The translations under genes were made by a program, and so were the position numbers. DNA of 64,000 bases from Owenia fusiformis (lineage: Eukaryota > Annelida > Polychaeta > Sabellida > Oweniidae): positions 34,043,259 through 34,107,258 of the forward strand of contig CAIIXF020000009.1 of assembly GCA_903813345.2 (NCBI GenBank). The letters run 5' to 3'. Below are positions 30,127 through 62,630 of this stretch, in pieces. Every line of letters begins with the position of its first letter. The first letter of the stretch is position 1. Below the pieces are notes generated by a model, which did not search any database, was not told the DNA's origin, and worked only from the letters and a program-made list of their open reading frames with translations.

Positions 30127-30646
30127 GTCGTTTTATAGGTGGTGTTAGATCGATGAACCAATCAGAAATGTGTATGAATAAATTAGATGATACTTCCAGT
30201 TTCAATTAATCAGTTGACATTAGCGCCATCTCCCAGACGCATATATAAGCAATCGGTCGTGTGTTTAGTGGTGTATATTGCTGTTTATTGATTTCCGAGA
30301 ATTTTTACAATTTCTGTCAATAAATCCAAAGCGAGGCTAACATTTTTCATGACACGCCAGATATAGAAGTAGTTCTAAAATAGTTCTTTGTTTTTTATTG
30401 TCAAATCTTATTGTCCTGTAACTTGGTAAGCATTCACACAAATATCTTATTGGACCATAATTATCCTTGTATGAAGCTCGTCATATTAGTGAAAGAAAAG
30501 GGAAAATGTTTCAAAAAAGTTTTGGCTTCGCGCATTGATCTTACCAACGTCAGCAGCAGCACTTTGGCCAGGTGTAAACATTTTTATCCATCAGAATATG
30601 GCCATATTTTGACAAATATCTCCCTGTTTATCCAACACTTCTGGAT
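30127..30646. promoter_or_regulatory. Head-to-head PKD2 / SGSM3 intergenic region (probable bidirectional promoter)
   Basis: Only about 520 bp separate the PKD2 ATG (30126, minus) from the probable SGSM3 ATG (30647, plus). Reading toward PKD2 there is a TATA-like TTATATATGC (complement of about 30238-30247), a GATGGCGC motif resembling a YY1 site (about 30221-30228) and an ATTGG CCAAT box (about 30157-30163). The duplicated copy at 4.6-4.78 kb keeps the GATGGCG motif and the CCAAT box, but its TATA-like block is altered. Transcription start sites are inferred, not seen. Confidence 0.6.
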
Positions 30647-30713
30647 ATGGAGTTAGCCAGGAGCGTATTTGGAGGCCGTTCCACTGATGGATACAGTGGT
30701 AGAGGTAACCAAG
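30647..30713 (+). CDS. SGSM3: SGSM3 exon 1 (probable start)
   Basis: An ATG at 30647 opens 22 codons ([22 protein letters not shown]) and ends in phase 1 at CAAG|GTGAGA. That phase matches exon 2, where G+TT restores [10 protein letters not shown] in frame. No in-frame ATG lies upstream before a stop. The sequence has no family signature. The call rests on phase, donor quality and position; an alternative is an unseen 5' exon or the internal ATG at 34073. Confidence 0.65.
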
Positions 30714-42700: not shown

Positions 42701-45700
42701 ATTAATTGTACTATGAATAGCGTAATCTGGCGAGACCAACTTCCGGTCTATTTATAGTCACAAAAATGTAAACAATTACTTGTCTATCGATTTGTGAGCG
42801 ATCTGTTTCATATCTAAGGTAAGAATTGAATGTTCTCTATTGCTATAATCATGTTTTTAAGGAATATATACATGAAGAATAAGTTCATGTCGAACGAAAG
42901 AGAGAATATTAAAGTCTAAAAAATTTCAGTTTTCAATTTTTCCTCGAACCGTGGATGAACCGAATCTCATATTTATGAACCGAAAATACCGTCCTAGCAT
43001 CATGTACCGCGGTAACCGCGTACCGCGGTTAACCGTTTGACCCCTAGTGTCAACGTATGAGGAACAGGGTGAAAATAGGTGCATCTGGAACTCTCATCCT
43101 TCAATAATAGGCCTTCTGTGTTTCCCACATTGATATAATTGTTTATATGTACATTTACATTAAAACCTTTAAAGTGGAACACGTCGAGAAGTTGAACATC
43201 ACTGCTAGTGGAACACTTTTTTTAGAGTCCTGAGACCAACTGACTTAATGTTAAATGAACTTCTATGAGTGGAACACATTTTAGAGGTACGAAAGGTGTT
43301 CCACTTAGACTGGTTTTACTTGTAGATCCCTATTCTAGGGCTTCAGAGCATATTAAGCATGGGTAATTAATTAAGCTCTGGTTGATTTAAAAAAAGAACT
43401 ATGCTCATCTGTATTTTCCCCAGTGAATAATCAGGTGCTCTGTCTGGGTATTTTATTTTACAAGAGATACGATGCCTTGGGGCCAATATCAATTTCACTT
43501 AAAGATGATAATAAAAGTGATTTGATATTTGAATTGTGTCCTTGGGAGTATTTCATTTGCAAGAGTTTAGAAATGTGAATAATAAGTTCAATTTTGAATC
43601 AAAATAGATTTGACAATAAAGTTTCCATCGAGTACGAGGAGGTATTCCAGCTTCAGTTTGGTGTAATTTTGGGAAATGGTGCAACTTTAACATTCATGCT
43701 TCGAATACTCACCTTCACCCTTGTCTCTATGGAGTGGGGGCTGGTAATGATTTGGAAGAGAATGAAGTTCACTGTGGTCTGATGGAGAAACAATTTAAAA
43801 AGTATTTTGAATTTTTTTTACAATCGACTGTTTGCTGAAGAAATATACATGTAGTTATTCAGTTATACAGAACACTAGCTGTAACAACATAATCAAACTA
43901 TTAAAGTTGATACATTATTTTTCAGCAACTGAACAAAAGACACCTGAAGAGGTCAAAGTCGCTTATATCTACCTTACTCTGGGGGGATGGGGACTCCGAG
44001 GATTATGGGAAGGCAAAAAATATAGCTCAGACAGAACTACTGGTAGATTTAAGAGAAGCCATCTTACAAATAGGACGTCACTTCCAATCTATAGATCCAA
44101 AAGTTAAAAATATGGTATGGTTATTTTTATAATCTAAATTCTGTGAAATGTAACTTCTTGAGCCATTTTGATAAATCTTGTCATTGTAAAACTAGAAAAA
44201 CTGCTTGTTTATTTTATTTATACTGAATGGTATCTATAGTTCTAGATCTGGGGGTCATTTTACAGCAACCTTATTAATTTAAGAATTCCAAAATCAATTG
44301 TAACCATGGATATACTGGTGTCACAGTACCAGTAAGAGAACAAAGAAATTCTATATAAAGCTTCTATTAACAAACCCGTGAATTTTTTGATGGTTACAAC
44401 TATTGATTAGTGTCTCAAGAGGAAGCTGAAACGAGAAGTGTGTTCTGTAGAACTCAATGGGCATATATATCCCCTCATACAAATGTTCTTATATGAGCAC
44501 TTTACCATTTTACCTGCAGAACTTGACAGCTGACTACAGCATGGACAGCCACACTGAAGACTTACAAGAATATGTCAATGTTGCAAGAAACAGACGTCGT
44601 AGAGCAAAAGCGTTGCTTGATTTTGAACGTCATGATGATGATGAACTCGGATTTAGGAAGAATGATGTCATTACAGTATGTATAATGAACAATAGAATAG
44701 AGTTGATTTATGGATTTGTTTTTCATTGATTCTATCAAACAATTATCTCATGTGTGTTTGTAGATCATACTAAACTGAGTAAACTCCCTCATAATTTCCT
44801 TACAATATGTCCACACCTTAAAATCAAATTACATGTGTGTAACCAGGATGTATTGCCTCGTATGTCTGATGCCTGGCTATACCCATGTATTACATAGCTA
44901 TCTTGTGTTTGTAGATCATTTCCCAGAAGGATGAACATTGTTGGATTGGGGAGTTGAATGGCTTGAGGGGCTGGTTCCCTGCTAAGTTTGTTGAACTGTT
45001 AGATGAGAGAAGTAAAGATTACTCCATGGCAGGAGATGACAGTGTCACAGAAACAGTCACGGATCTAGTCAGGGGCGTGTAAGTAAACACTCTTGAGAGC
45101 TTTCTTATTATTGAGTAGAGAGGGATATTTTAGAGGGGAAATGTCAATACAAGATACAGTAGATGCTAAGAAATGTAACTTCAGTCCAAAAAATGTTGTC
45201 TACAACATTGAAAGCAAAGTTGGTATATTAGATCAATATTGTGACTACCAATTTTTGCTCTGTATTATTTTGAAATATCAATATTTTAGGTTGTGCCCAG
45301 CTTTGAAAGCAATATTTGAACATGGATTGAAGAAGTCAGTCATCATTGGTGGACATTGTCATCCATGGCTCTTCATTGAAGAGGTAAGAAAATGAGTTAC
45401 ATTTTTGTTATTTTTTTCAAATTCATAGTATTGAATTATCTTGGATTCTGAGAAGTACAGATGTAAGAACATTTTGCTGTTTTTAATAGTCTTTTTGATA
45501 ATCTACTGTTTTGTTTCATTTTTTTTCCTTAGTCTTAGTCACATTAACACTCATCGATCAGTTACTTAATCAAGAGAGCTTCTTAGTGTTCAAAGAAAAT
45601 TTCCCAAACTTCTGTTGTTTGAAAACATAATAAGTGTAGTCAATTTTTGAGGACTGTAGTTCAATACAGGTAAAATGTATGTTTCATTAAAAAGTTTCCT

Positions 45701-48700
45701 TTTCTTTCCAGGCAGCTACAAAGGAAGTAGAGAAAGATTTTGAATCTGTTTACTCAAGATTGGTGCTTTGTAAAACTTACAGGTAAGAGTAAAATATAAA
45801 AGCATGTTTCAAGAATTTTTATTTGTGTGTAATTCTCATCTGGATTCAGTGTCCAGTTGCTCCTTCGCGAATGCATCACTAATGCAGCTAGTGCGATTTG
45901 AGAATTGGACACCCCAAATACTATCTAGGATCCTCGAGGATGTGGCTCTTAAAGATTTAAATCCAGCTAGAATGCTTAAAAAAGTTATTGCACTGTTGTA
46001 CTTCTGTGATATTGCCAAGACCCTACAATGTAGCACATCGTAGTATACTCTTGTTCAAGCTCAATTGGATATTTAGGCCATGTTTTCTGCCAAAGGGACT
46101 TTATGCTTTTAAACCCCCATATTACCAATAGGTAGCTGTTACATCAAATTTATTTTGCTGCATGGTGTCATTGAATTAATTGCATCAAAATTAATGTGAC
46201 ACAGATATGATTTGATTGTGACTCGACACTGGTTCATAAACATTGGAATACTTTTTTTTTTATTTATTATTTTAATTACCCAAATATCTCATAAACCGTA
46301 TACCTAAATCTAGCACTTAAACAAGTAAACCATTGCACTCTATGAAATTTCAGACTAGATGAAGATGGGAAGGTATTGACCCCTGAAGAGGTGTTATACA
46401 GGGCAGTCCAGGCAGTCAATCTAACCCATGATGTGGCACATGCACAGATGGATGTTAAATTCAGATCTCTTATGTGTTGCGGTCTCAAGTAAGATTTTAC
46501 TTGATGTATAGTTTGTACTTGGCTAGAATATGTCCAAAACATGGCTTGAGTCACTTCACTTACATCTACATTACTTAAAAAAAATTAAAAAAATTAGAAT
46601 TATGAAATGAAATGTTGCTGCTATAGCTATACAGTTTCATTTAAAAGCAGTTGAACTTGGAGTTATGCAATTAATAAAATACCTTTTACTTGGAAATGCA
46701 CTTTTCTTGATAATATGAATATAATGATACATACGACTGTTAAGAATACATATCACTTTCAGTGAGCAAGTCCTGCATCTCTGGCTAGAGACTCTATGTT
46801 CGTGTTCAGATGCTGTGGAGAAATGGTACCACCCCTGGTCATTCATGCGCAGCCCTGGTTGGGTCCAAATCAAATGTGAACTCAGGTAAGTAACAACCTA
46901 ACACCCCTTTCCATATCATTTATCCAAATTGGATTAGTCCTTTTCCATTTGGATTGTTGAAATAGAGGGATATCACCATGTCCTTTTGGTGGAGCTGTTA
47001 TCAAGGTAGGGCATGGTATGTATTTGTGATAGTAGTTTGTTCTATTTAATTGACACTTGTTACTTAGTTTGTGACATCCATTAAGTTACCATGATCGATG
47101 CAACTAGTCCCAATATCATAGAAAATGCCCTTGGTACTCAGTGTGTCGATTATGGTCTTTATAGCACCAGATATTGTACCATTTAGTTGTTGATTCTTTT
47201 GTTTGTAGTTTTCAACCATGAATAGAATTTCTTTCATTTGTAGTTTTCAACCATGAATAGAATTTCATACAAGCCATGTTTTAGAACTAATGTTGTTTCA
47301 AAAAGTGCAGCAAAAACACAAACATCAATATTTACAATGAATAAATTAACTTTGAAAATTAAATAAAAATGGAAAAACACATTTTTCTAAATTTGCCGAG
47401 AAATAACAAAGCAGAAGCCTGACAAGTATGATTTTTTAAGCATGGTTGCATCATATTTAGTTTTCATGTTTTCCAATTAGTTCATTGTTTGTCTATGGAT
47501 TTTATGAGAAGCCAAATAATGAAACTTTGTTATCCAATACATGTGATTGGATATTATGTTTATGTCTCTAGTCCTGAAAAGTAGAAAAAGTTTATTTTGA
47601 TCAAAGTAGTTAGCCATTATTTCAAGCTCAGAAAACAGTCATGGCATATTCGTTTATAGAATTGGTTCCAAAAGGCGCAACAGTATAAATTGTAATAGAG
47701 CACGTCTCAAAATCTTTTGACAACAAAACAATGAAATAAGTGGGAAACTATGAACTCCATCATTTCCAATCATTTTTTAATCATAATTTTAATTTCAGAA
47801 TCCTTAAAAAGTTTTTCTTCAATTTGTCAATTGATTGGGAATTATCACGGAAAAGGAAAATTCAGGACGCTGTGAAGGAAAGTGTGAGAGACATGATTGT
47901 AAAGCACCATCTATTTAGTTGGGAAATTGATACTGCTAAATGATATATAACATCATAAAAATCACATGAAACCAAGGCTGAACAGTCATGCATTGTATCA
48001 TATCTAAAAAGGTATGACATTGTCTTCAGATTGGTGCTTGGGTGGGTGGGTGATTGGAACTTAGGGTGTCACTGTTTCTTGTTCACAGATTTCCAGGCAA
48101 ATCTTTTGAAAGATTTATTTGAAATTTTCAGGGATGTTTCTTGGTATATTAATCTAAAACTGATAAATAGTAGTTTTTGAAGGATGCTGTGTGAATGAAA
48201 TTTGAGACGGCCATATTTTATATTTTTAGATACGATACACTGTGTGCCTTGAAATAAAATTCCCATAAAATGAAAAATATGCCTTGAATAGGCATAATGA
48301 TGTAACATAATTCAAAATATGCATTCTCTCTTATGTTAGAAAGTTTTACATGAGCTATTGAAATATTAATTATAGGTCGATTTAGCATATAGAATGACAA
48401 TTATTCATAAAATTCATCAGTGCAATTTATAATATTTCTGATGCAGTATATTTGAACCACTAACTGCAAAAAAATAAAAACGAAATTAATTTGCTCAAAT
48501 CCTATAGTCATTGGTGTAACAGGTCAACTTTTTCATATTTGAGCACTAATTACAATTAAGGTGGTAGATTTGATAATAAACGGCTTTCCACTGTTTTGTC
48601 AAAACAGTTTTGCACAGATCCTATTCATATTATTAATACAATGTTCACAAATGTATATCAGAAAAACAAATGAACTTTTGCAATAATTATAAAAGAAATC

Positions 48701-51700
48701 ATTAATTTTATTCCTCTTTTGTACGTTTGATTATTGAGATAAAAATTATTTATATTCTATGTTATTTTATATGTTTTCATATTAATTAACAGTGTACATA
48801 TACTGTAGTTTAATTCTAAGTGACAAAAAAGTTTATATACTGTACAGTTATTTACTAATAGTACACATTTGCAATATTTATTTATACACTTATGACATAC
48901 TATATTATATTTTATACATCATATAATTCCTAAAAGTTGTGACCCATTAGGTATTATCCCATGCATGTAGTAAAGAAATCCATTTTAAGTTAACTTTTTG
49001 TTGTTTCAGTAGTAATAGTGGAAGTACAGTAAAATATAGTCTATTATGTCCTCATTGTACTTTTGTAAATGATGGCCATATTAAACTATCGAATAACCTG
49101 AGTACAACTCAGAAAGAAATTCCTTGGCTTCTCATAGAATTCCATTTTATATTTTTACACAATTATCAAGTGCCAGCCACCACCCCCCTCCCACTTGGGT
49201 GAGAGAATTGGGGGGGATGGCTTGATACAATATGTATACTGTTTGCCTGTACCTTTTATAGTTTAAACCTGAAAATGTAAATGTCAGTCTGGCTGGATTT
49301 TCTTGTTTTTGATGATGTTTCTATGGCAATATTGTAAACAATTCAATTTCATACAACAATAATTATCCCATCGAACGAAGTTCGGAGGGATATAGGGAAC
49401 GCCTCCGTCCGTCTGTCCGTACGTACGTCCGTCCGTCCGTCCGTACGTACGTCCGTCCGTACGTACGTCCGTCCGTCCGTCCGTCCGGGCAATAACTCAA
49501 ATACCGTTGGCCCGATTTTGTTCATATTTTGTACACATATACCCTATGGGGGTAGAAGTTCTGCTCGAAAGCCGATTTTCAAAATGGCCGCTCATTTCAA
49601 AATGGCGGCCATTTTAGTGCCGATTTTACAGTAATTTAGGTGTAATATGTAAAACTGTAATAGCAATATGTTTTAAATGTAAAAAAATTATAAAGGACAT
49701 TAATAATGCTACAAATGTAGATATTAAAGAAGCGCATGGCAGCCATCTTGAAAAATGGCGGCCTTTACTCGTCATTTTACGATTTTTGCTATAACTCAAA
49801 AAATAGTGGAGCGATTTTGTTCATATTTGGTATGTGAATACAATAAGCATTGCACACTGTCTAAAAACACTTTTGGTTGAAGGTGGCCATTTTGAAAAAT
49901 GGCCGCCATTTTAACGTATTTTAATATAACTCGAAAAGTAGTGGAGCGATTTTGTTCATATTTGGTATGTGAATACTATAAGCATGGCACACTGTCCTAT
50001 GACACTTTTGGTAGAAGGCGGCCATTTTGAAAAAAAAATTGAAAAATGGCCGCCATTTTAACGTATTTTACTATAACTCGAAAAGTAGTGGAGTGATTTT
50101 GTTCATATTTGGTATGTGAATACTATAAGCATGGCACAATGTCTATTTCTAATGACACTTTTGGTAGACGGTGGCCATTTTGAAAAATGGCCGCCATTTT
50201 AACGTATTTTACTATAACTCGAAAAGTAGTGGAGCGATTTTGTTCATATTTGATATGTGAATACTTTAAGCATGGCACATTGTTTAGTAAAACTTTGGGG
50301 AGTAGTCGGCCATTTTGAAAAATGGCCACCATTTTTATGTGTGTAATTTTACAAGTACGTGTGCAATTTTTCAAAAATTTTATAGGTGGCTACTTAAAAG
50401 CATATTATTTCTTCTGATGACAACTTGGCTAGTGAGCAACCATTTTGAAAATGGTGGCCTTTCTGGTGTGTTGTTTTATGATATTTGCTATTCGTTTGTA
50501 AAAATGCCAGCCATCTCTGTTCGATGGGATTCGCTACGCTTTGGCGTTGCCGTTGTTCTGGTTTTAGTCTGGGGGGAAGGGACTTGATGTCTGTCAATGA
50601 ATCAAAATTATTCTGAATATATGAAAATCATGACAAATATTGGACCCAATAAATATTATCATGTCAGCTAAGAAATTCTTAATGAGATATGCACCAAATA
50701 TTTATTCAATAATTTCTGTCTCAAGTCTTGTATATTTGATGACAATGACATTAAATTCTCAGGTTTTTCTCATGGCCCAATCAGACAATTTCAGAAATTA
50801 AAACAATTTTATAAAGGAAAAGTCTGATTGGTTCGTGTATTCTATTTCTAAGTTGTTATTTTGTAGTTACGAATAGTAGAATTATGTTTTTGTAGTATTA
50901 AATGTGATTTATTTCTATGTAGTAAAACATCCAAGTACAGTGAAACCTGTTTTAGTGAACTTCTTATTGAATATGGCATTTGTACACAAATATTTCCATT
51001 GACTTCCATGTTATCAGACCAAACAGTTTTGTGTGTACACTTAACTCCTGGTAAACACCAATGTTTATTGTGTGCTCACTTACTATTCCTTCCTGTAAAA
51101 ATGGTCAATGATGTATAGAAGTTCATTGTTACAAGTTGTCTAAAAATAATTGCATATTGAAATTATTTTTCATGCTTTATACAAGTTAGTGACCAAAATA
51201 TAATTGAATTCCAGGTCACAATCAAGCAATTTCAAATTGGTTGACTAAAAACTGAAAATTATAAATGTGCACTGTCAATTTGAAAATTTGTTAATGTACA
51301 TGCAGCATTGATATAGTCCCCTCTGCCAAAAGCTGCCAAGCATGCATGTCAAAGCTTTATAAAACTTTCATACAACATCAGTAAGAAGATGATGAATATC
51401 AAACTTGGTTTACAAACAGAAATTGACATTTTGAAGTTTTGTCTGTTATGATTCGTTTTTAGTAAAGGAGTATTCAAATAGAATTATTGAATTCATGTAT
51501 GTTTTCAACTACATGTTTTGTTTTCTGTTGATTAAGATTATTATTAGTTAATACTGTGTTATTTGCATCATTCTTTATATAAAGAAATTCTGTACTTTAT
51601 TTGTATTATTGACTGAATAGAAATCTTAAGCACATAATAAATGAAATACACCAATCGTTGATTTTATAATATGATTTTATGTTAATTTCTGTTAATTGAT

Positions 51701-54700
51701 GTTGAATTCAATGAAAATGAAATATTTGAGTAGGCTATAATGAGTGAATGAAATATCTCCCTGACCCCATTCATTAGTTTGAGGATAGTGGATACACATT
51801 GTCCTATTCTATTTGAACCTTATTGTTGTTGTTGTAATATTATGTTAGTGTTATAATATTATGTTTCATATTACTATCATTTCAGAGTTCTTTCAAGATT
51901 CAGTTTTCAACTATCTCGAGATACAGAACTTGCACCTCCCAATCACACTCGTGTCACAGACCCATTTCTTCAGCGTACAAGAAATCTTCTTGTGTCATAT
52001 TATCTTTTTAATTGGGAGTTAGATGCTCCTTGACATTATGCCATAATATCTTTCATGAAAGTGTTTGTTTATGTTTTATCCACAAATCAAAAACTGAAGA
52101 AATCTAAAACTTCTTATTCTTGCCAATTTACTCTGTCATTTTTTTTTGTTATACTGTTTTGTACATCCTTGTTGATTTTGTCTTTTTAGAGTTATTTTTT
52201 ATTTTGGCAGATTGAAAAGGAATCGTGTGTTTTAGTAAATTATTCTTTTATAGTGTATGAGCCTGTTTTATTTAAACATTTGCAATGCCAATGAAATGAA
52301 ACTCTCATTGGCAAGTATACCATTTGAATCAAACAGGCTTGATTATTTGTCGTAGTTTGTATGTAGTAAAATACTGTACATATATATCAGGGCCTGATTC
52401 TAGTCACAAATCCATGTCTAGTAATTCTACTACTATTCATTTGCTATGTGACAAGCATGGACATTGTGACTGTTATGTATGTGCGTACCAGAAAATTTGA
52501 AAAAAATGTAATATAACGTGTTCATATCTAGTCAGATACATCAGACAAATCATGAGTCTGAACAAGTTCAGATTTTATATCACAATATGATATATTGAGA
52601 TGTTCCCTCAAATCAAACATGACACTTTATGCATTATTCAATCTTTGAATGGTGCTCCTGTATTATTGAACTTCCTTATTTAAGCATAGAGATGTAAGCT
52701 TAACAGGTACACATAGTAGTCTTCATATTTACTATTCCCATTTTCTGTAAGAGTCCAGGTTGAGCTATATTCTAAGAACAATAATCCAAAAAGAGTTTTT
52801 CAATTTATTTAAACTTATAACTATAATCTATCACATATAAGTTATAGATATCTGTAATTTGATTGGTTTACAGACCACATGGTTATTTATTATGTTGCAC
52901 CAATCAGCAGTCAGCTTACAGAATGTATATGTTATAAGTTTATGTACAATATGAAAAGCTCAATAATATAAATACTAAACAGCAACTATTTTAATATAGC
53001 AAATAAACACTAGTTATGCTAATATATATTTTGAATTTTACATAATAGTATAAATATAGATAAATATATTTATTTTTAGTCTATTTACAGTAACAAAAAA
53101 CTAATTTTGCACAACCTAAACTTTAAAGTGTCTGAGATTCTGGCAATAAATCACCTCAAATGTTTTTATTTCATAATGATCTGTAACTTGTTTATCTTTT
53201 GAAATTTTCAAAGGTTGAAAAACAATTACTCATCTCGTAAGGATCTTATCACCATGCAAAGCAATGGCAAAATTTAAAATCTGCTTTCTACATGAGTGAA
53301 ATTTTAAAGGTTCGATAAGGAGATTTATATCAAAGTATATTAATTGTGCAGGTTACTTATCATAATGAAAAAATATTTAGGGTGCTAAATTTCAGATATG
53401 GCCCTTTAATATGCATGTTTTTGATTATGAACTGGTTATTACTAACAGACCATTTTGTGTGTGCATGTTTTTTGATAAAAGTAACTTCTACTAGCAGAGC
53501 ACTGTTTTTCACTTGTTCCTCAATCACATTGTTGTTTGGATTGAATTCATAAATATGAAATGTGCACCCAAATATTGTATTTTATTAATGCCAACATAGT
53601 AACATAAATTAACCACAATTAATCTTTTACAGAATTCTCGCCAACTTTGGTTTCACACTGTCTCCAGATTGGGAAATTCCACGACGCAAAAAATTCCGGT
53701 CCTCAGACTTGAAAGAAGGAGTCCGAGATATGTTGATTAAGCATCATCTTTTTAGTTGGGATCTTTAATAACATTTGAAGTGTCATAATTAAATTCAAGA
53801 GTTTGTTATGATGAGTAGAACCGATGATGTGTGAAACTTTCTAATCACACATATGAACTCCAAATATCTTTCTAGTCTTTTTATAGATGTCTCTTTATCG
53901 CTTTGGTATTTCTCAAATATTTCGTATATCCCCTACTCTTTGGTATTTCTCGATTAAAGCATGAGTCTTTAAGACTTTTTGACATAGATTTTAATATAGG
54001 TGATGGGTGCTGCCACCTTTGGAGTTGGGAGTCTCAGACATGCGTTAAAATCATTTGGCTTTATGCTCTGTTACAGTGAATGTAATAAGTTTTGATGAAA
54101 AGCCTGTAGCTTTGTTATTATACTACTGACTCATTTCTATACTTTGAATTACTGTGTTAAAACCAGAACCACCACCACAACCAAACCTTGGCCTCATGAA
54201 CCACAAACCTGTAACTTTTGGAACTTAAACAGCAAATCAGTACACTACTCAAATATTTACAGTCAAAAATGAGTCGGAAGTATAAAACAACAGCAAAAAA
54301 TCTCCGTTTTTTTCTCAAAACTTATTAAATGCCCAGTATTTTTCTGAAATGGTGTATGGCTCCTTAACATCTTTTTTTTTTAAATTTATCCATCTACAGT
54401 TTAAACCTATCCATCTACAGTTTAAACCTATCATTGATTTGTTTGTTTTTCAATCTAATGGCAGGTTCATTGTTACAAGATGCCACATATTGTTGCAATC
54501 TGTCTCATTTATTTCGTCCCAGATTTTGTCATCAATATACAAATCAAACCCACACGTTTTTCAAGTTTATCTTACACAAAAATTCCATTTTTCAGAAGTG
54601 TCACATGGAATTGTTTATTATAAGTGTTCCCATTGACATTAACCCCACACTTAGGTTGCTACAAAAACAACACAAATATTGTTTTATAAACTAGAAATGT

Positions 54701-57700
54701 TCAAAATTATTTCTAATATCCGTATTTATAATTTCTCAACCTTCATGATGTGTTTAAAAAAGAAATAAATTCCTAAAAAGCTCAAGCCGGATGTTTGAAA
54801 GGAAATGGATTTAAGAAATGTCAACATAAATCAAATTATGTTTCTACATAGTTAGCTTACTCTAGTCCAATAAATTGACATTTTATAGGTCTCGTGGAAT
54901 AGTCTAAAAAGTGTATTAATGGGAAAAACAAACATGTGTTATGATACTTTCTCCATGATCTAGTTCGTAGGGAACTATCCTTGTATATTAAGAGTGTACT
55001 TTAGCATGTTTTCAGTGTTTCTTAACACAGCTTTCTCAACAAAAACATCAAACAAATAATGTTAAAATATTACAGTGATAAACATGAATAATGTGCCAGT
55101 TTATATTTTTACCTATTTGCTTTTATCTTCAAGACTGTCATGCACTTCACATTTATGATCTCATCCAGGGTATATAGATCATACTCTTATTCTGACATGT
55201 TTTCATGCCCTCGATCATAACATTGCATTATTCTCCCATGAAGTCATTTAAAAAACGAAAATGAAACAATATTATTATTTATTGGTCATCAGTATATTTT
55301 TTACTAATCTTTACAATTTATTTGTACACATTTTGGTTTATATGAGTTACAACAACAAAAAGTACATGTGAGTCACCAAAATTGAATAAAACGAAAACAA
55401 TTAAGAAATTTATTTAAAGATCTTGATGCTTTTGGAGTGCACTCGTAGACTCTTTACCCATGATTGTGACTATTACTAATATTATTGTTAAATCAGAAAT
55501 GTCAAACATTCAACTTCGTCAAACAAACCCTAATTCAAATATTTCATGTAGTACAAAATATTCATGATGTTCTGCAGGAATACATTATCATTAAGTCGGG
55601 ACAAGAATTTGTTTTTTCATTACAGTATGCAAGTCATTATTTTTAAAAGCCCAATTTAATCACTCACTACTTAGTCTACCTTAAAATACAATATAACCTC
55701 ATGACTCCAAGTCATGTTTTCAAGATTAACAAATCCTTGTGGTTGATTCATGTGAAATGTCATGGATACAGAATCAGTGCAGTAACTGAACTTGTAGGAA
55801 ATGACATTGACAAGCAAACTTTCTAATTTAGTTTCTTATCATGATATATATGGCCTATCATAAACCAAAACAAAACCAATAAGATGGCTTATTGCCAGTT
55901 GCTTTGCCCTGACCTTGTGCTCCTAGGCATCAATGCTTTTTGTACTTATCAGCTTTAAAAAGCAAAATATATGAGTGAAGTATTTCTGATGGGCTTAACA
56001 TATTTACTTTTATAAAAAAATTGATTGCTAGGTGGGCTTTTTTCCATTTTCAAAGTCAGTAATGTACACAAGTTAATAACGATCATATTTCAGTGCATAA
56101 TATTCTACACCATTTGTAAAAAGAAATTTGAACCTGAGAATTTGCTAAAACTGCATAATGATTTCATGTAAATGCATCGCAAGTTTGAACATAATACACA
56201 TAATTCCCAGGGTCTTTACTCATTTGTTGTGAAAAAAATAAACGATTTTTGTTGCAAAATAATTGAAATTTTGCCAAGGGGTACATTTTCCCAGGATGAT
56301 CTTGATATCCTAAGAGCACTCATCGTGTGATCTCTTACAATCTTATGATGCTAAATATAAAGATATAAATACAAAGTACTGATGACAACCTATGTGATTC
56401 ATGATGAAAGCTGAAATATCATGACATTCACTTTATTCTAAACATGTTTTTACTCCCTCTATTTTTAGAAAGCTTTTATACTAATTCTGGGTCATTTTTT
56501 GTTTTCATTTTTTGCTCTGTTATTTTTATACAATTTTATACAAATTTATTTTGATTGATATTAAAATTCATTCATTGGGTAAAGCTGAACATACCAAATC
56601 TGTCAGTCCTAATTTTAGTGGTATGAATTAGTGTAATTTCACACTAACTTTAACATTTACAATTGAAATCCATACATCTATGTTTCTCGACTTTGGAATT
56701 CCTCCATATGTTTTAGAATTATGCATTCATCTTTTGAGCTTGAATATTGTTATGTTTATGTTTTTTTTGTCATAAGAAGACTGATAAGACCCCTATAAAC
56801 CATATTTAAATGTGTTTTCATTCATTCAGTGTCTATCTGCATGTGCAACCTTTGTGTCATTTAAAAATTAAAAAGCCCATTGAGATTTCACTCTTAGAGC
56901 TGGCCACAATAACAATACAAATCTCTCTTCATAGGCAACCATTGATATATAGGGTGTCTCAAAAAAATGTACCCAAAAGTATATCAACAGCATAGACAAA
57001 CCAATCAATATTTTCAGACACTTTTTGCATGGTCTTGTAGATAAAAGATGAAAGTTTTTTTCCCTATACAGTCTTTAATTCAGTTTTGCCTTTTTGATAC
57101 TTTAACCCTTTACCTTTTACACCACATATTCAATGTAACCTCATATTTCGATGACAGTCTGCATCCTTACTAGTACATTGTTCATCACATTTGATATTCC
57201 TTGTGGAATGTTTTGATTTCTGTTCGGATGCTGGTCTTAAGTTGTTCTAGGTCTCTTAGCTTGGGTTTAGCATAAAAATGGTCCTTCAAATAGCCTCAGA
57301 GAAAAAACTATGGGCGGTCAAATATGGTGAATAGGGAGGCCTTCACAATGTCTTATAGTCCCCTTATACAGAGAGGTCAGAGGTTAAAGAAACTGCATTG
57401 ATTGGGATTCTAATGTAGCCTTTGTTGTGTGTATCAATTTGAGACCACTGTGTTTTCATTTGGATATCATTTGGTCTCCAGGCTAGCCTGCCTAACTCTG
57501 GAAGGTAACTTCTGAATCATTTGCCGATAATTGACCTGATTATCTGTGTTTGTTCTGCCATCGTCATCCTCAGACATCTTTCTCTGTAGCTATTTGAAGG
57601 AGTGTTTTAATGCTCATTCCAAGTAAAAAGATCTAGAACAACTTAAGGGCAACATCCAAAGAGAAATCCAAAACATTCCACTGGAATTATTATCAAATGT

Positions 57701-60297
57701 GATGAACAATGTAGCAGTAAGGATACAGGCTATAATAGAAATATGAGGTTACATCGATTATGTGGTGTAAAAGGTAAAGGGTTAAAGCATCAAAAAGACA
57801 AGACTGTAAAAAAAATGGTGTATTGGGGAGAAAACTTTCATGTTTTGGCTACACGACCATGCAAAAAATGTCTGAAAATATTGATTGGTTAATCTGTGCT
57901 ATTGATATAGTTTTGGGTACATTTTTTTGAGACACCCTGTATATACAAACATTCAATAAAACACTTGGACTTATAATTCCATACTGGAGGCGGTTGCTCA
58001 ATGTTTTTGAAGAAGTCACAAAGTACTGCTCGAGATGAGTACAGGTGTACTTAGGTGTAGCTATTACAGGTGCACTTTTTAAAGAAAGTACAAGATGAAT
58101 GGTCTTTATTGGATACTGAGTTGTACCCCTCAGTAAAATGAAAATTTAGCCATGCTAAACTCACTCCATCCATTTCTCCATAAAAGACATTTCAATTGAA
58201 TAGTTGTGTTTTATTTCTTGGCCAACAGGATAAAAAACTGTTCCTCGCTAAATCTTCTCTTTTTCACCTTATTGAATGAAAAAGCATGAGTTTTGTATTT
58301 TTGTTTTATTTACAGACTAACTTGTGTTAGTGTCAAGGTAAACTTACCAAACTAAGTCAGTCCCTTTAAAAATTATTCATTTTTTTAATTTTCCAGTCCC
58401 TCACATTAATCACATGGGTTGAGGAATCATTAAATGATGCGACCAATCGTTCATTTTCATTAACATCTTGGACATTAACTGATTTGGATTATTTACAAGA
58501 TAGTGGAGATACTAAGTTAAAGAACATTCTCCTCTATGATAACTCAGATGATGAAGAACATCATGAAGGTTATGATGCCTTAATAAAGATAAGTCAAGGC
58601 CACAACACATGAATCAAATTATATTTATTTGACAACAACATATTGTTTGCACACCTGTGATGAGATTTTTTGAAACATGGTTTCACTTTGACTGAAATTT
58701 ATTGACTAATATCTCAATTAATCCATCTTGATCCTTCAATGTATGCCATATGACTGAAAGAATACACTGTGTTAAGATTTTTTGACACATAGTTTCACTT
58801 TGACTGAAATTTATTGACTGATGTCTCAATTAATCTTTCAATGTATGCCATATGACTGAAAGAATACACTGTGTTAAGATTCTTTGACACATAGTATCAC
58901 TTGACTGAAATTTATTGACTAATATCTCAATTAATCCATCTTGATCCTTCAATGTATGCCATATGACTGAAATAATACACTGTGTTGAGATTTTTTGACA
59001 CATAGTTTCACTTTGACTGAAATTTATTGACTAATATCTCAATTAATCCATCTTGATCCTTCAATGTATACCATATGACTGAAAGAATACACTGTGTTGA
59101 GATTTTTTGACACATAGTTTCACTTTGACTGAAATTCATTGACTGATATGTAAATACGAAATCCATTAATATATAGTTGTATAATGATGCATATATCTAT
59201 CCTATCATCCATATATAATGAACTTGCATAATATTCTTAATGTTTATTTTGTTTTAAACCCGTCCATACATAAAGTTCTCTATAGATCCTGTCTTGCCTT
59301 GTATATTTTGAAGAATTTATGATTTCATGTTGTCAGTTAAGAGTGTTCCTTCAACTTAATTTGGTACAGTTTCTGGATATACACAGGAAAATTCTTCATT
59401 GTAATTTACCCAAAACATTTACACGTGCATACATACAAACCATGATATACAATTTGCTCGACTTGAACGTTTTCTATATAGATCTACAAATCTATAATTT
59501 TGTAATTTACCCAAAACATTTACATGTGGATACATACAAACCATGATATACAATTTGCTTGACTTGAACTTTTTCTATAATATTATAGATCTACAAATCT
59601 ATAATTTCTAAGCATGGGGTTTTAGTAATTTGTACATGTATAAATATTCCATTTATTGTTAACAGTGGATGTTTGTGACCATGTATTTGCTAATAAAAGA
59701 TTTTGCATTGATGTTTTGAATTTTGCAGCTTCCAGCTTATGGTTGTGGAATCTTTTGAATGATAACTAATCAGTACAGTAAAATCTGTTTAAGTGGAACA
59801 CCATTTGTACCTCAAAATAATATTCTTTAGAGGCAGCTCCCACTAACAGAGGTTAATATTCACTCTATGGGACTTTGATATGTTCAACTTAGAGAGGTGT
59901 TCCACATTACAGGTCTTACTGTACAATTTACATGTAATTCATCCTTTTCTAAATCTATATATGCATTTTGCTTTTTTAACAAGCAGTGTAGTGTAACATA
60001 AACCCCTAACCAGATCAAATCTTTGAAGCTTGTGGTGGCGGACATTCTACACCTTCCCATGGATTAATAATTAATTAATGAACAAAGTGATTGATTCCTA
60101 TTAGATATTTATCCATGGAGTCCCAAACTAACCTGCATTTGCTTGTTTGCTGTACTTGCAGAATCCTTTCTCAATTTGCTTTCAACCTGTCCAAGGATTG
60201 GGAAATCCCTACTGGGAAGAAGGACTTCCATGTACCTTTAAAAGATGGCATTAGGGATATGCTTATAAAGCACCATTTATTTAGTTGGGATATTTAA
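30647..60297 (+). CDS. SGSM3: SGSM3-like TBC-SH3-RUN protein, whole gene with four alternative last exons
   Basis: Encodes a homologue of small G protein signalling modulator 3 (RUTBC3/CIP85), a Rab GTPase-activating protein of the endosomal system in vertebrates. Shared exons: 30647-30713, 34038-34216, 34802-34868, 35053-35183, 35752-35946, 36202-36336, 36627-36743, 40238-40316, 40713-40858, 41201-41296, 41627-41758, 43926-44114, 44520-44675, 44915-45078, 45290-45383, 45712-45782, 46354-46488, 46763-46885. The last exon is one of 47799-47943, 51886-52033, 53633-53768 or 60162-60297. All junctions are GT-AG and in phase. Predicted lengths are 806, 807, 803 and 803 aa (human about 749). Domains: TBC about 166-365 with Arg finger R217 (DLLRTMP) and Gln finger Q254 (YCQG), so GAP activity is likely; SH3 about 540-600; RUN about 600 to the end. 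Exon 1 is less certain than the rest. Confidence 0.95.
30946..31232 (-). other. Possible antisense two-exon transcript in SGSM3 intron 1
   Basis: On the minus strand, ACAATGGCGG (about 31231) is followed by an open stretch to ATTG|GTAAGT (about 31194). A second open stretch runs from CAAG| (about 31102) to GCAG|GTATGA (about 30949). In the frame without the ATG the two join as VILEI then [20 protein letters not shown]; in the ATG frame a stop follows. A GTTAAACTCAATAA inverted repeat overlaps the second part. I do not recognise a family; coding status is doubtful. Confidence 0.2.
31863..31989. mobile_element. Degenerate MITE related to 1259-1569
   Basis: Begins CCAAGGAGGATTGACTCCCAG and ends CTGGAAGCCAATCCAAATT, an imperfect inverted repeat of the start. 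About 127 bp, in SGSM3 intron 1. Confidence 0.55.
32683..33430 (-). mobile_element. 5'-truncated LINE fragment (C-terminal knuckle and 3' UTR)
   Basis: On the minus strand one frame reads [20 protein letters not shown] followed by PLTAIHEND, the C-terminal cysteine/histidine knuckle typical of non-LTR RT proteins. A 3' UTR follows that ends in AAATAAATAAATAA-like repeats (complement of about 32685-32700). Upstream the frame is broken. It lies in SGSM3 intron 1, antisense to the gene. Confidence 0.7.
34038..34216 (+). CDS. SGSM3: SGSM3 exon 2
   Basis: Begins with the acidic [10 protein letters not shown] and ends [20 protein letters not shown], matching [18 protein letters not shown] of human SGSM3. 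Acceptor TTTTCAG, donor GTAAGT. Confidence 0.92.
34392..34686 (+). mobile_element. 295-bp foldback element, copy 1 (SGSM3 intron 2)
   Basis: Matches 38981-39275 on the opposite strand over its whole length. Inside it, TATGTCACTATCGTGGCA (34569) and TGCCACGATAGTGACATA (about 34661) form a strong hairpin. Carries no ORF. Confidence 0.88.
34802..34868 (+). CDS. SGSM3: SGSM3 exon 3
   Basis: 67 bp encoding [20 protein letters not shown], matching YYDEFGFRVYKEE of the family. Acceptor ATATAG, donor GTAATT. Confidence 0.93.
35053..35183 (+). CDS. SGSM3: SGSM3 exon 4
   Basis: Encodes [20 protein letters not shown] plus DK, almost identical to [20 protein letters not shown] in human SGSM3. Ends in phase 0 at GTACAA. 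Confidence 0.95.
35752..35946 (+). CDS. SGSM3: SGSM3 exon 5 (start of TBC domain)
   Basis: 65 codons with [27 protein letters not shown] and [14 protein letters not shown], matching the first TBC motif region (GIPHGMRPQLWMRLSGA). Confidence 0.95.
36202..36336 (+). CDS. SGSM3: SGSM3 exon 6 (TBC catalytic motifs)
   Basis: Starts [12 protein letters not shown] and ends [11 protein letters not shown]. It carries both catalytic residues of TBC-domain Rab GAPs: the arginine finger (R217) and the glutamine finger (Q254). 135 bp, phase 0; donor GTGAGT. Confidence 0.96.
36627..36743 (+). CDS. SGSM3: SGSM3 exon 7 (TBC domain; seed of the 67-bp minisatellite)
   Basis: 39 codons: [39 protein letters not shown]. 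The last 52 bases of the exon plus the GTGTGTATATTATTT donor region are the first unit of the 19-copy tandem array that follows. Use of the first donor keeps the frame into exon 8; later donors do not. Confidence 0.95.
36692..37964 (+). repeat. 67-bp x 19 minisatellite grown from an SGSM3 exon end and its splice donor
   Basis: Each unit is AGAAGACCTCCTCCCTGCTT, CATACTATTCCAGCACACTA, TTGGGAATACAG and GTGTGTATATTATTT. The first unit is the last 52 bases of exon 7 plus its donor. Donor points recur every 67 bp from 36743 to 37949 with no length change. Variants alternate (CTCCC/TTCCC in the first part, CATAC/CAAAG, TATTATTT/TATTTTTT), and some variant strings recur within the array. 67 is not a multiple of 3, so the copies cannot extend the protein. 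Confidence 0.95.
37971..38165. mobile_element. MITE-like element with ends CATGGGCATAGCGC
   Basis: The left end CATGGGCATAGCGC is nearly inverted at the right end GCGCTACGCCCATG. About 195 bp, immediately after the minisatellite. A short ORF in it is chance. Confidence 0.55.
38981..39275 (-). mobile_element. 295-bp foldback element, copy 2, inverted (SGSM3 intron 7)
   Basis: Same 295-bp sequence as 34392-34686 but in reverse orientation, with only scattered differences by eye. The two copies bracket exons 3 to 7 and the minisatellite. Confidence 0.88.
39889..39965. repeat. 41-bp tandem duplication
   Basis: The phrase AAAAACTACTAAATGTGCTA with its flanks occurs twice in a row in SGSM3 intron 7. 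Confidence 0.7.
40238..40316 (+). CDS. SGSM3: SGSM3 exon 8 (TBC domain)
   Basis: Encodes [20 protein letters not shown] then LKNHDI, matching [26 protein letters not shown]. Acceptor TTTCTAG, donor GTGAGT; ends in phase 1. Confidence 0.94.
40345..40551. mobile_element. MITE with ends CAGGCCCGTAGCCAGG
   Basis: The left end CAGGCCCGTAGCCAGG is perfectly inverted at the right end CCTGGCTACGGGCCTG. The 207-bp interior has G-rich and C-rich runs. It lies in SGSM3 intron 8. Confidence 0.8.
40713..40858 (+). CDS. SGSM3: SGSM3 exon 9 (TBC domain)
   Basis: Encodes [20 protein letters not shown] and [15 protein letters not shown], the conserved LxxLRxWDxFFxEG TBC motif. Donor GTAAAA. Confidence 0.96.
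41201..41296 (+). CDS. SGSM3: SGSM3 exon 10
   Basis: 32 codons including [18 protein letters not shown], matching NSASIFNTLSDIP of human SGSM3. Donor GTAACA. Confidence 0.95.
41627..41758 (+). CDS. SGSM3: SGSM3 exon 11
   Basis: 44 codons with [20 protein letters not shown] and [10 protein letters not shown], matching LAGSLTDVAVETQRRKHLAYLIADQGQLL. Confidence 0.95.
42093..43046. mobile_element. Non-autonomous hAT element, complete with 8-bp target duplication
   Basis: Inverted ends TAGGGGTCAAACGGTT and AACCGTTTGACCCCTA, flanked by the perfect direct repeat GTGTCAAC (42085-42092 and 43047-43054). An 8-bp duplication with ends of this type is the mark of hAT transposons. 954 bp, no transposase ORF. 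A near-perfect palindrome CCAAGTAAAGAGATCTCTTT, then ACTTGG, lies at 42488-42513. It is in SGSM3 intron 11. Confidence 0.9.
43152..43326. mobile_element. Pogo-like MITE
   Basis: TACATTAAAACCTTTAAAGT then GGAACAC at the left is loosely inverted at the right (GTGTTCCACTTAGACTGGTT, TTACTTGTA). The ends resemble those of pogo-group elements. Degenerate. Confidence 0.5.
43926..44114 (+). CDS. SGSM3: SGSM3 exon 12
   Basis: 63 codons: basic [20 protein letters not shown], then [20 protein letters not shown] and RHFQSIDP, matching KNIKQTELVADLREAILRVARHFQ of human SGSM3. Confidence 0.94.
44520..44675 (+). CDS. SGSM3: SGSM3 exon 13 (start of SH3)
   Basis: Contains [10 protein letters not shown], then [20 protein letters not shown] and KNDVIT, the [15 protein letters not shown] start of the SH3 domain, essentially identical to the vertebrate protein. 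Confidence 0.97.
44915..45078 (+). CDS. SGSM3: SGSM3 exon 14 (end of SH3, start of RUN region)
   Basis: Encodes [20 protein letters not shown] and [20 protein letters not shown], the SH3 core with its conserved Trp and Pro, followed by [14 protein letters not shown] leading into the RUN domain. Ends in phase 2 at GTAAGT. Confidence 0.97.
45290..45383 (+). CDS. SGSM3: SGSM3 exon 15 (RUN domain)
   Basis: Encodes [20 protein letters not shown] and [11 protein letters not shown], matching [23 protein letters not shown]. Donor GTAAGA. Confidence 0.96.
45712..45782 (+). CDS. SGSM3: SGSM3 exon 16 (RUN domain)
   Basis: 71 bp encoding [20 protein letters not shown] plus KTY, matching [20 protein letters not shown]. 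Ends in phase 2. Confidence 0.95.
46354..46488 (+). CDS. SGSM3: SGSM3 exon 17 (RUN domain)
   Basis: Encodes [20 protein letters not shown] and [20 protein letters not shown], nearly identical to the vertebrate sequence. Ends in phase 2 at GTAAGA. Confidence 0.97.
46763..46885 (+). CDS. SGSM3: SGSM3 exon 18 (RUN domain; shared donor to alternative last exons)
   Basis: Encodes [20 protein letters not shown] and [20 protein letters not shown], ending CTC AG|GTAAGT. The two bases AG need one base from the next exon. All four downstream terminal exons supply A, making Arg. Confidence 0.97.
47799..47943 (+). CDS. SGSM3: SGSM3 alternative terminal exon A
   Basis: A TTTCAG acceptor is followed by (R)[20 protein letters not shown], a linker, then [20 protein letters not shown] and TGA. 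It matches the last RUN segment of human SGSM3 (FSLSQDWELPAKR...[18 protein letters not shown]). A possible AATAAA signal lies at 48253-48258. It gives a predicted protein of 806 aa. Confidence 0.9.
49367..50528. mobile_element. CCCATCGAAC-ended element with (CCGT)n and hairpin tandem repeats
   Basis: The left end CCCATCGAAC is inverted at the right end GTTCGATGGG. Inside are a (CCGT/ACGT)n microsatellite (49407-49487) and about five 120-150-bp tandem units. Each unit holds AGTGGAGCGATTTTGTTCAT followed by ATTTGGTATGTGAAT and a GGCCATTTTGAAAAATGGCC hairpin. No ORF. It lies between terminal exons A and B of SGSM3. Confidence 0.78.
51886..52033 (+). CDS. SGSM3: SGSM3 alternative terminal exon B (divergent)
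   Basis: A TTTCAG acceptor is followed by (R)[20 protein letters not shown], then [19 protein letters not shown] and TGA. The frame and pattern match the other terminal exons, but the DWE motif is DTE and KHHLFSW is replaced by SYYLFNW. It lies about 5 kb downstream of the shared donor. A possible AATAAA lies at 53003-53008. Predicted protein 807 aa. Confidence 0.82.
53633..53768 (+). CDS. SGSM3: SGSM3 alternative terminal exon C
   Basis: A CTTTTACAG acceptor is followed by (R)[20 protein letters not shown], then [19 protein letters not shown] and TAA. With exon D it is the closest to the vertebrate C-terminus ([18 protein letters not shown]). Predicted protein 803 aa. Confidence 0.9.
56950..57939. 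mobile_element. Tc1/mariner-like foldback element with duplicated transposase 3' ends
   Basis: Ends (C/T)AGGGTGTCTCAAAAAAATGT and ACATTTTTTTGAGACACCCT are inverted repeats, flanked by TA. The inverted arms are long, about 305 bp each (56950-57255 and 57632-57939). Each carries, pointing outward, the C-terminal coding part of a transposase (right arm: [20 protein letters not shown]). The minus-strand middle (57300-57600) keeps broken transposase sequence. It is therefore a rearranged, inactive copy. Confidence 0.82.
58397..58612 (+). other. Orphan open frame after a good splice acceptor
   Basis: TTTTCCAG is followed by 71 open codons ending TGA at 58612. The protein is acidic toward its end ([20 protein letters not shown]). 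It needs phase 0 upstream, but the SGSM3 shared donor is phase 2; spliced to that donor it would give only SPSH and a stop. I do not recognise it. It may be a chance frame, an exon of another transcript, or a truncating fifth SGSM3 terminal exon. Confidence 0.25.
58661..59150. repeat. 100-113-bp tandem repeat, about 4.5 copies
   Basis: The phrase TTTCACTTTGACTGAAATTT followed by ATTGACTAATATCTCAATTA recurs at about 58690, 58801, 58902, 59013 and 59126. Confidence 0.85.
59401..59609. repeat. About 105-bp tandem duplication
   Basis: GTAATTTACCCAAAACATTT through GATCTACAAATCTATAATTT is present twice in a row with a few changes. Confidence 0.85.
59774..59932. mobile_element. Pogo-like MITE
   Basis: TACAGTAAAATCTGTTTAAG then TGGAACACC at the left is inverted at the right (GGTGTTCCACATTACAGGTC, TTACTGTA). 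About 159 bp, just upstream of terminal exon D. The ends resemble those at 43152-43326. Confidence 0.65.
60162..60297 (+). CDS. SGSM3: SGSM3 alternative terminal exon D
   Basis: A CTTGCAG acceptor is followed by (R)[20 protein letters not shown], then [19 protein letters not shown] and TAA. It lies 13.3 kb from the shared donor. Possible AATAAA signals lie at about 60664 and 61472. Predicted protein 803 aa. Confidence 0.88.
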
Positions 60298-62089
60298 AGA
60301 TGGCGTAGTGGTGAAGTTATGGTTTAATGAACCATAAGAGAGATTTTCTCATTTAGCTGTAAGAAGCATTTACCTCTTCCAGTTCAAGCACTACTGGTGT
60401 TTGTTTGGGTTAATGTGTGTATCAATATGTTGACAAAATGTTCTGGAAAACAATTTTATGTTCGCTTTTCAAAATGATGTCGGGCAGAGCATCAGAAACT
60501 TTATTAGATTCAGAGGAAAATATAGCATATATTTAGTCAGCATGTTGGTATGACCATAAAGTACTCTTGCACCTAAACCCCTTGAGTAAAATAAGTAAGC
60601 TGGTTATCACCTTGCATGATACTTAGTTGCAATCGTGTTAAAAATTGAAAGATAAATGTTCATAATAAAATATTTTTATATTATCTTTATACATAAGGTC
60701 TGTGGATGGTACAGCTATGACAAACAACTCAAAAAAATAGAAACAGTGCCAATTGGTGCTTTTGATTGATTTATGAGTTGGGATTTAAGTTGTGGCTATA
60801 CCAATTACAGACCCTAAGTACAGTTTAGTGTATAGCCCCAAGATTCCATGACCATAATGAATTGACCCCATAATAATATAATGGATGGGTCACTTCAGGT
60901 TCTTGGGGGTTTTCATTAGACTGTGCATGAATTTCTCAATGAATTCTTAGTTACGTTTACATTTTATGTAAAAACAGAATATATAGTTTAGGGTAGGTCA
61001 GTATCTTTAAGGCTGTTGAGGTTAAAAGAGATCCATGTACAAGATGGAATGTTTCTTATGTTCATGTGTAAGGCCTAATGTTCACATGCATAAGCATATT
61101 AAAGGTATAATCTTAACTTATTTGTTCATGTTGAAGGCCTAATGTTCACTTGTGTATACATGCTAAAGGCCTAATGTTCAAACATGGGTGCAAGTTAAAG
61201 GTCTCATGACAAGTATATATCAAATAAGGAACATTCCTCATATAGTCATTGAATGAAACAAAGGTGCTTACAGATTGACTTACTGTAGTCTTGCATATAA
61301 TATGGGTCATTTTGTTCATAAGGTGATACTTCATGATTTCAAATTCAAGAGACCAAATGCAATATAAAATGCAAATTGTATGTATGTATAAATTCATGGA
61401 GACACAGTCCATTTTTTATTTTGAATGCCCAAAATTAAGTTCAAGGAGATTGTATATACTTATAATATTTGTGTCAATAAAGATGAGTATTTTTGTATCT
61501 TATACCTGAATAGGTTTGGGGGTGTGTAACACCTGTGAATAAATGTCATATCTTACAGATATGGGTTGGGTATGTTTGGGTTCTATATGTATAACTGGGG
61601 AATGTGCAGTTCTTAGTCTAGTTGTCTTTCAAAAGAGCTGAGACTTCCCCCAATCCTATATCAGGTGAAGATAAGGTCATTTTATTTTAGATATAGGGTT
61701 TATCCTCTAGGAAATATCTTTATCTCCCTGAAAATAAATTCTTTATCCAAAGCCTCCCAAATCATATGTGATTACATTATAGGGTATGCATGTAGTAAGG
61801 TATAATACAAGTTATATTTCATGAGAGAAAATCAATGTAAATTATTCAACCGTTATATGAAATTTTAATTAGTAGGTTGAGTAAAAGAAATGGAGTATAG
61901 AGTCTTTGGAAAGTAGTTTTGAGACTGTATATTGTAGAATATATAGCATTACATTAAAATAATGTTCTCAAAAGTGTTCCAATGTTTTACAGACTTATTA
62001 TCATGACATATTTAATTGACATTCATATTCTCCATGACATGTGCCATATGATTGACAGGATCTAAACTTTTACACAATAAAACATGTTT
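60298..62089. other. SGSM3 3' flank, no other gene recognised
   Basis: Includes the probable 3' UTR of terminal exon D with AATAAA near 60664 and 61472. The phrase AAGGCCTAATGTTCA recurs three times at 61070-61180. No coding motif is recognised. Confidence 0.5.
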
Positions 62090-62630
62090 AAAGTACAGTA
62101 CAGTACAGCTCGGTACAGTACAGTTCGGTACAGTACAGTAAAGTACAGTATATTGCAATTTAGTACAGCTGGTACAGTACAGTACAATATGGTGTATTGC
62201 AATACAGTACAGCTAGTACAGTACAGTACAATACAGTGTTTTGCAATACAGTACAGCTGGTACAGTACAGTACAATACTGTGTTTTGCAATACAGTACAA
62301 CTGGTACAGTACAGTACAATACGGTGTATTGCAATACAGTACAACTGGTACAGTACAGTACAATACGGTGTATTGCAATACAGTACAGCTGGTACAGTAC
62401 AGTACAATACGGTGTTTTGCAATACAGTACAACTGGTACAGTGCAGTACAATACGGTGTATTGCAATACAGTACAACTGGTACAGTACAGTACCATACGG
62501 TGTATTGCAATACAGTACAGCTTGTACAGTACAGTACAATACGGTGTATTGCAATACAGTACAGCTGGTACAGTACAGTACAATTCGGTGTTTTGCAATA
62601 CAGTACAGCTTGTACAGTCATACAGTGCAG
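62090..62630. repeat. 44-bp GTACAGTAC minisatellite
   Basis: About 12 copies of a unit made of GTACAGTACAGTACAATACG, GTGTATTGCAATACAGTACA and ACTG. Each contains the perfect palindrome GTATTGCAATAC (or a GTTTTGCAATAC variant) and overlapping GTAC sites. Several frames on both strands stay open for 113-206 codons only because the 44-bp period cycles through frames without stops. Confidence 0.93.

Follow-up and report, generated by a model that had tools for sequence, protein, structure and literature searches.

Four candidate alternative terminal exons for variant C-termini of SGSM3 in the annelid Owenia fusiformis

The SGSM3 locus

The window analysed here, a stretch of 64,000 nucleotides from Owenia fusiformis, carries on its forward strand a gene whose exons, joined by eye, match three Pfam domains: a Rab-GAP TBC domain (PF00566, 1.2e-52), an SH3 domain between TBC and RUN (PF00018, 4.3e-12) and a C-terminal RUN domain (PF02759, 3.3e-35). 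Upstream of this gene, at 20000-31200, the reverse strand bears open reading frames, some of which we take, by eye, to resemble exons of polycystin-2-like channels. It is the three domains together that identify the forward-strand gene as SGSM3, since an SH3 domain beside TBC and RUN is the mark of SGSM3 and is lacking in SGSM1 and SGSM2, as described in PMC11725557.

The earlier exons of the gene, including the first TBC exons, occupy 34031-40315 (+). They were read by eye from open reading frames and their limits are approximate; one exon match among them, at 40238-40315, was obtained with a provisional vertebrate query sequence. Several further exons, which cover the later part of TBC, SH3 and the beginning of RUN, lie at 40713-46488 (+) and are defined by exon matches, canonical splice sites and Pfam, with acceptors at 40713, 41201, 41627, 43926, 44520, 44915, 45290, 45712 and 46354. 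Splice sites and exon matches remain regular as far as the exon at 46763-46885 (+), which encodes the RUN core, is open in the SGSM3 frame and ends in ...VQIKCEL plus two bases, AG, at the donor CAG/GTAAGT (46885).

Two kinds of repeat were observed within the gene. A tandem repeat with a 67-base unit (19.1 copies, 95% match) spans 36691-37969. The unit, whose length is not a multiple of three, includes the final stretch (17 residues) of a TBC exon and, as read by eye, the likely donor of that exon, ACAG/GTGTGT, so that a 5' splice site would be repeated about 19 times. In addition, the same 42-residue stretch can be read at 34556-34717 on the reverse strand and at 38968-39111 on the forward strand, which suggests two inverted repeat copies within SGSM3 introns.

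The exon at 46763-46885, hereafter the shared exon, has one copy in the 498 Mb genome (525 contigs), both as DNA and as protein. A 246-residue query spanning this exon and the five before it, back to SH3, was searched against the genome. It found each of the six exons once, at 76-95% identity to its own place; the other 37 of its 43 matches fell around SH3 (query residues 13-115), at 22-51% identity. A tandem duplication of the whole 3' half of SGSM3 is ruled out by the single-copy state of these six exons, which are what this search covers.

Four homologous exons follow a single donor

Beyond the donor at 46885, the initial annotation had placed four alternative last exons, and its coordinates for these, for the shared exon and for the donor were all borne out. 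The first, E1 (47799-47943, +), encodes the junction Arg and 47 residues; the divergent E2 (51886-52033, +) encodes the Arg and 48 residues; E3 (53633-53768, +) and the most distal exon, E4 (60162-60297, +), each encode the Arg and 44 residues. In all four, the AG of the acceptor is followed by an A that makes the junction codon Arg, and the frames, in the same phase, stay open until their own stops at 47943, 52033, 53768 and 60297. The pattern F-x-L-S-x-D ... R-[DN]-x-[LI]-[VI]-x-x-x-L-F-x-W is likewise present in each exon, as had been claimed.

Profiles built from any three copies recovered the fourth in a six-frame translation of 84 kb, with values of 1.2e-17 for E1, 2.6e-7 for E2, 1.5e-20 for E3 and 1.2e-22 for E4, against 0.047-0.3 for the best unrelated peptide. 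With the six preceding exons single, these profiles place homologous exons in tandem within one gene. An E4 query against the 498 Mb genome returned exactly the four places of E1-E4 at E values up to 10, and an E2 query returned these four and one weak pair (E 4.33) on another contig. Leave-one-out profiles and genome-wide searches together rule out a chance resemblance. No convincing fifth tail was found in the 498 Mb genome at E up to 10, where a missing match is not proof of absence, and in the window and the 20 kb beyond it nothing rose above noise, the next best match of a four-exon profile having E 0.11. No relatives were found in viral contigs. NCBIfam gave no match for E4 or E2, as is expected of a library of bacteria and archaea.

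All four acceptors had been described as good. We scored the 603 AGs at 46920-60400 with a matrix trained on ten other acceptors of SGSM3, and the description suits E1, E4 and E2, whose acceptors are strong (ranks 1, 2 and 10), better than E3, whose acceptor is the weakest of the four (rank 55) and scores below all ten training acceptors, the training scores being favoured by construction.

Two further tandem repeats were seen in this region. One array, with a unit of about 135 or 288 bases, lies between E1 and E2 at 49773-50335, and a 44-base repeat (11.5 copies, 92% match) lies at 62114-62618, about 1.8 kb downstream of the four exons.

Age and coding constraint of the four copies

Twelve alignment columns, of which the first is the shared junction Arg, are invariant in all four exons. 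Protein identity to E4 is 67% for E3, 55% for E1 and 36% for E2, which matches the three other copies at 33-36%. That the copies differ mostly in a central linker is accurate for E1, E3 and E4; E2 differs throughout.

In a dN/dS comparison run pairwise between the four copies and computed without the junction codon, pN (0.24-0.46) was far below pS (0.69-0.91) in all six comparisons. Synonymous change has reached or nearly reached saturation: four pairs are past the Jukes-Cantor limit, and the remaining pairs give dS of 1.84 and 3.37. Outside the exons, nothing better than E 0.008 is shared within 1.5 kb on each side, DNA physically common to the E2 and E3 neighbourhoods being set aside. The saturated or nearly saturated synonymous sites, the low pN and the flanks that no longer align lead us to read E1-E4 as old and constrained copies. 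A recent duplication or an assembly artefact is ruled out by the presence of all four exons on one 38.9 Mb contig, by the unalignable flanks and by the state of the synonymous sites.

Only one or two of the copies, E4 and perhaps E1, might be in use, the others being non-functional leftovers of duplication. The weak acceptor of E3 and the divergence of E2 (33-36% identity) would agree with this. We nevertheless find it unlikely, given that pN is low in every pair with synonymous sites saturated or nearly so, that the flanks have diverged and the exons have not, and that E3, despite saturated synonymous sites between the two, is the closest protein copy to E4.

Neutral decay of E4 was also simulated, under a simple composition-based model. 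The frame stayed open in 32% and 16% of runs at distances of 0.2 and 0.4, and in 4-9% at distances of 0.6-1.84, over which range 29 of 45 identities were kept in 0 of 4000 runs per distance. Identity at the level of E2 (at least 15) was kept in 30% of runs at distance 0.6 and in less than 1% at 0.9 or more; identity alone is compatible with a neutral E2 that was released late, at a distance of 0.6 or less. Against such a leftover, the changes of E2 relative to E4 are more conservative than those of 2678 neutral open-frame runs with like identity (BLOSUM sum 87 versus 53.6 +/- 12.6, P = 0.004), and E2 has kept its frame, phase and stop position. Its hydrophobic positions alone, 14 of 16 of which are retained, did not differ significantly from the neutral runs (P = 0.13). 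Constraint on the coding sequence of E2 is the less certain part of this picture.

Splicing and 3' ends

Four alternative terminal exons of SGSM3, as first annotated, are still the best reading of the array, now backed by coding constraint; from the sequence we infer that all four are used in RNA, each with a poly(A) site of its own. Poly(A) hexamers (12 types) number at least 12 within 1,200 bases after each stop, a count that is uninformative because such hexamers are common in DNA of 33.5% GC.

Within 600 bases past the stop, one donor-like site (at least 7/9 of the consensus) follows E1 and two follow E4. The E1 site, a 7/9 match, sits 69 bases past the stop. These sites would agree with an arrangement in which the four are penultimate exons, chosen to the exclusion of one another and each joined to the same 3'-UTR exon in place of having its own poly(A) site. 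We consider this arrangement very improbable, as no site of that quality occurs within 600 bases past the stops of E2 or E3, a result in keeping with terminal exons that each carry a poly(A) site.

Early polyadenylation under regulation is widespread as a mechanism, and three of the proposed terminal exons lie upstream of E4, the most distal one. The proximal exons could on these grounds serve chiefly to tune SGSM3 dosage, as regulated sites of intronic polyadenylation, with the change of tail being secondary. Such a role is compatible with alternative terminal exons, but as their chief function we think it quite unlikely, because dosage control alone would not require the constraint seen in the coding sequence of the tails.

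Docking and selector pairing, as in a choice governed by competing RNA structures, was not supported in the stretches covered, which were about 600 bases of the first intron and, ahead of each acceptor, 290 bases. Of 100 shuffles, 89 equalled or surpassed the observed total pairing energy, and 94 did so for the third-best selector.

What the swapped part encodes

Taken with the two shared exons before it, each of the four tails gives a RUN score of 85.6-91.4 bits (Pfam, cut-off 22), and in these four joined proteins, as in the E4 protein used for the three-domain search, the RUN match covers about 12 residues of the alternative exon before it stops. The initial annotation had put the exons in the RUN domain, which holds for about their first 12 residues; the remaining 32-36 residues of each form a C-terminal tail after RUN. 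The residues with which the alternative exon opens probably complete the last RUN helix, since they fall where the Pfam model ends. The tail contains KHHLFSW in E1, E3 and E4 and SYYLFNW in E2, and E2 is the tail likeliest to be specialised.

Modelled on their own with AlphaFold, the E4 and E2 tails gave low confidence (mean pLDDT 60.0 and 63.0), and only a C-terminal helix is moderately supported, at residues 26-44 in E4 and 27-43 in E2, with pLDDT of about 80 over residues 31-40. A search of the PDB by sequence gave one weak match, the RUN domain of Iporin (6if2, E 1.3e-4), which ends before the swapped part.

A model for the choice of tail

We propose that SGSM3 very probably ends in four tandem-duplicated, mutually exclusive terminal coding exons, each with its own polyadenylation, giving four proteins. 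Four intact versions of the last exon in a row make four proteins with different tails probable. In each transcript, the single strong donor at 46885 would be joined to one of the four acceptors; cleavage and polyadenylation would take place downstream of the chosen exon, and this 3' processing would fix the choice. The four proteins would have in common TBC, SH3 and most of RUN, and would differ in about the last 12 RUN positions and in the tail of 32-36 residues. The choice may be controlled by competition between splicing and cleavage, with the involvement of RNA-binding factors.

The tails may also differ in function, most plausibly in the binding of partners by RUN and the tail (RAP, merlin) or in localisation. 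A choice of Rab partner, which had been suggested at first, is unsupported: PMC11725557 describes RAB binding of SGSM proteins through TBC, and the swapped part is mostly the tail after RUN. The same paper assigns to RUN both the binding of RAP by SGSM proteins and that of merlin by SGSM3 (PMC11725557). With RAP and merlin bound through RUN and RAB through TBC, an effect of the tails on RAP or merlin would be a more natural guess than one on Rab. More speculatively, a tissue-specific choice of terminal exon, which would exchange the end of the last RUN helix and the KHHLFSW-type tail, might retarget this Rab-GAP and give one catalytic TBC domain four alternative membrane partners or RAP/merlin partners, with E2 (SYYLFNW) as a distinct class and the array shared across related phyla; we regard this as possible but doubtful.

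Four constrained variants of one RUN C-terminus on a constant Rab-GAP would form a natural series, which could be used for asking what the poorly understood tail of SGSM3 binds.

Comparison with known systems

Vertebrate SGSM3 is not known to have more than one tail, whereas four are present here. The vertebrate tail, in a provisional sequence, is 60-62% identical to E1, E3 and E4 and 36% identical to E2. The order TBC-SH3-RUN is common to the vertebrate protein, also called MAP (PMC11725557), and the Owenia gene.

Duplicated terminal exons are established in other genes. Among human tandem duplicated exon substitutions, 77 of 236 events swap homologous C-terminal regions, as reported in PMC9741552; SGSM3, SGSM and the RUN domain are absent from the main text of that survey. 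The same paper describes TPM1, Drosophila Tm1 and C. elegans lev-11, each with three tandem duplicated 3' exons that can yield homologous C-termini (PMC9741552). The SGSM3 array resembles these tropomyosin genes in having tandem duplicated 3' exons for homologous C-termini, but it belongs to another protein and has four copies in place of three, known here from their sequence.

In Drosophila, the transcripts of pip and PGRP-LC each take one of several homologous terminal exons or 3' variable regions to the exclusion of the rest, pip being grouped among UTR duplications and the choice in PGRP-LC involving competing RNA structures (PMC9013439). A choice among homologous 3' ends is what we propose for SGSM3 as well; in contrast to PGRP-LC, our simple test found no competing structures in the parts of the SGSM3 introns that it covered. 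In cephalochordates, duplicated final exons of preGNAS (Gs-alpha) encode a C-terminal helix, and a change of partner specificity has been proposed (PMC5896119). This too is an alternative C-terminus of a signalling protein, although in preGNAS two final exons were duplicated as a pair and retain 80-81% protein identity, whereas in SGSM3 the copies are single exons at 33-67%.

Among the open-access papers that our literature searches brought up, we found no report of the SGSM3 array or of like isoforms, which is weak evidence of absence. With terminal-exon duplication established, the kind of system is known and SGSM3 appears to be a new case of it, one that would extend terminal-exon arrays to regulators of vesicle traffic.
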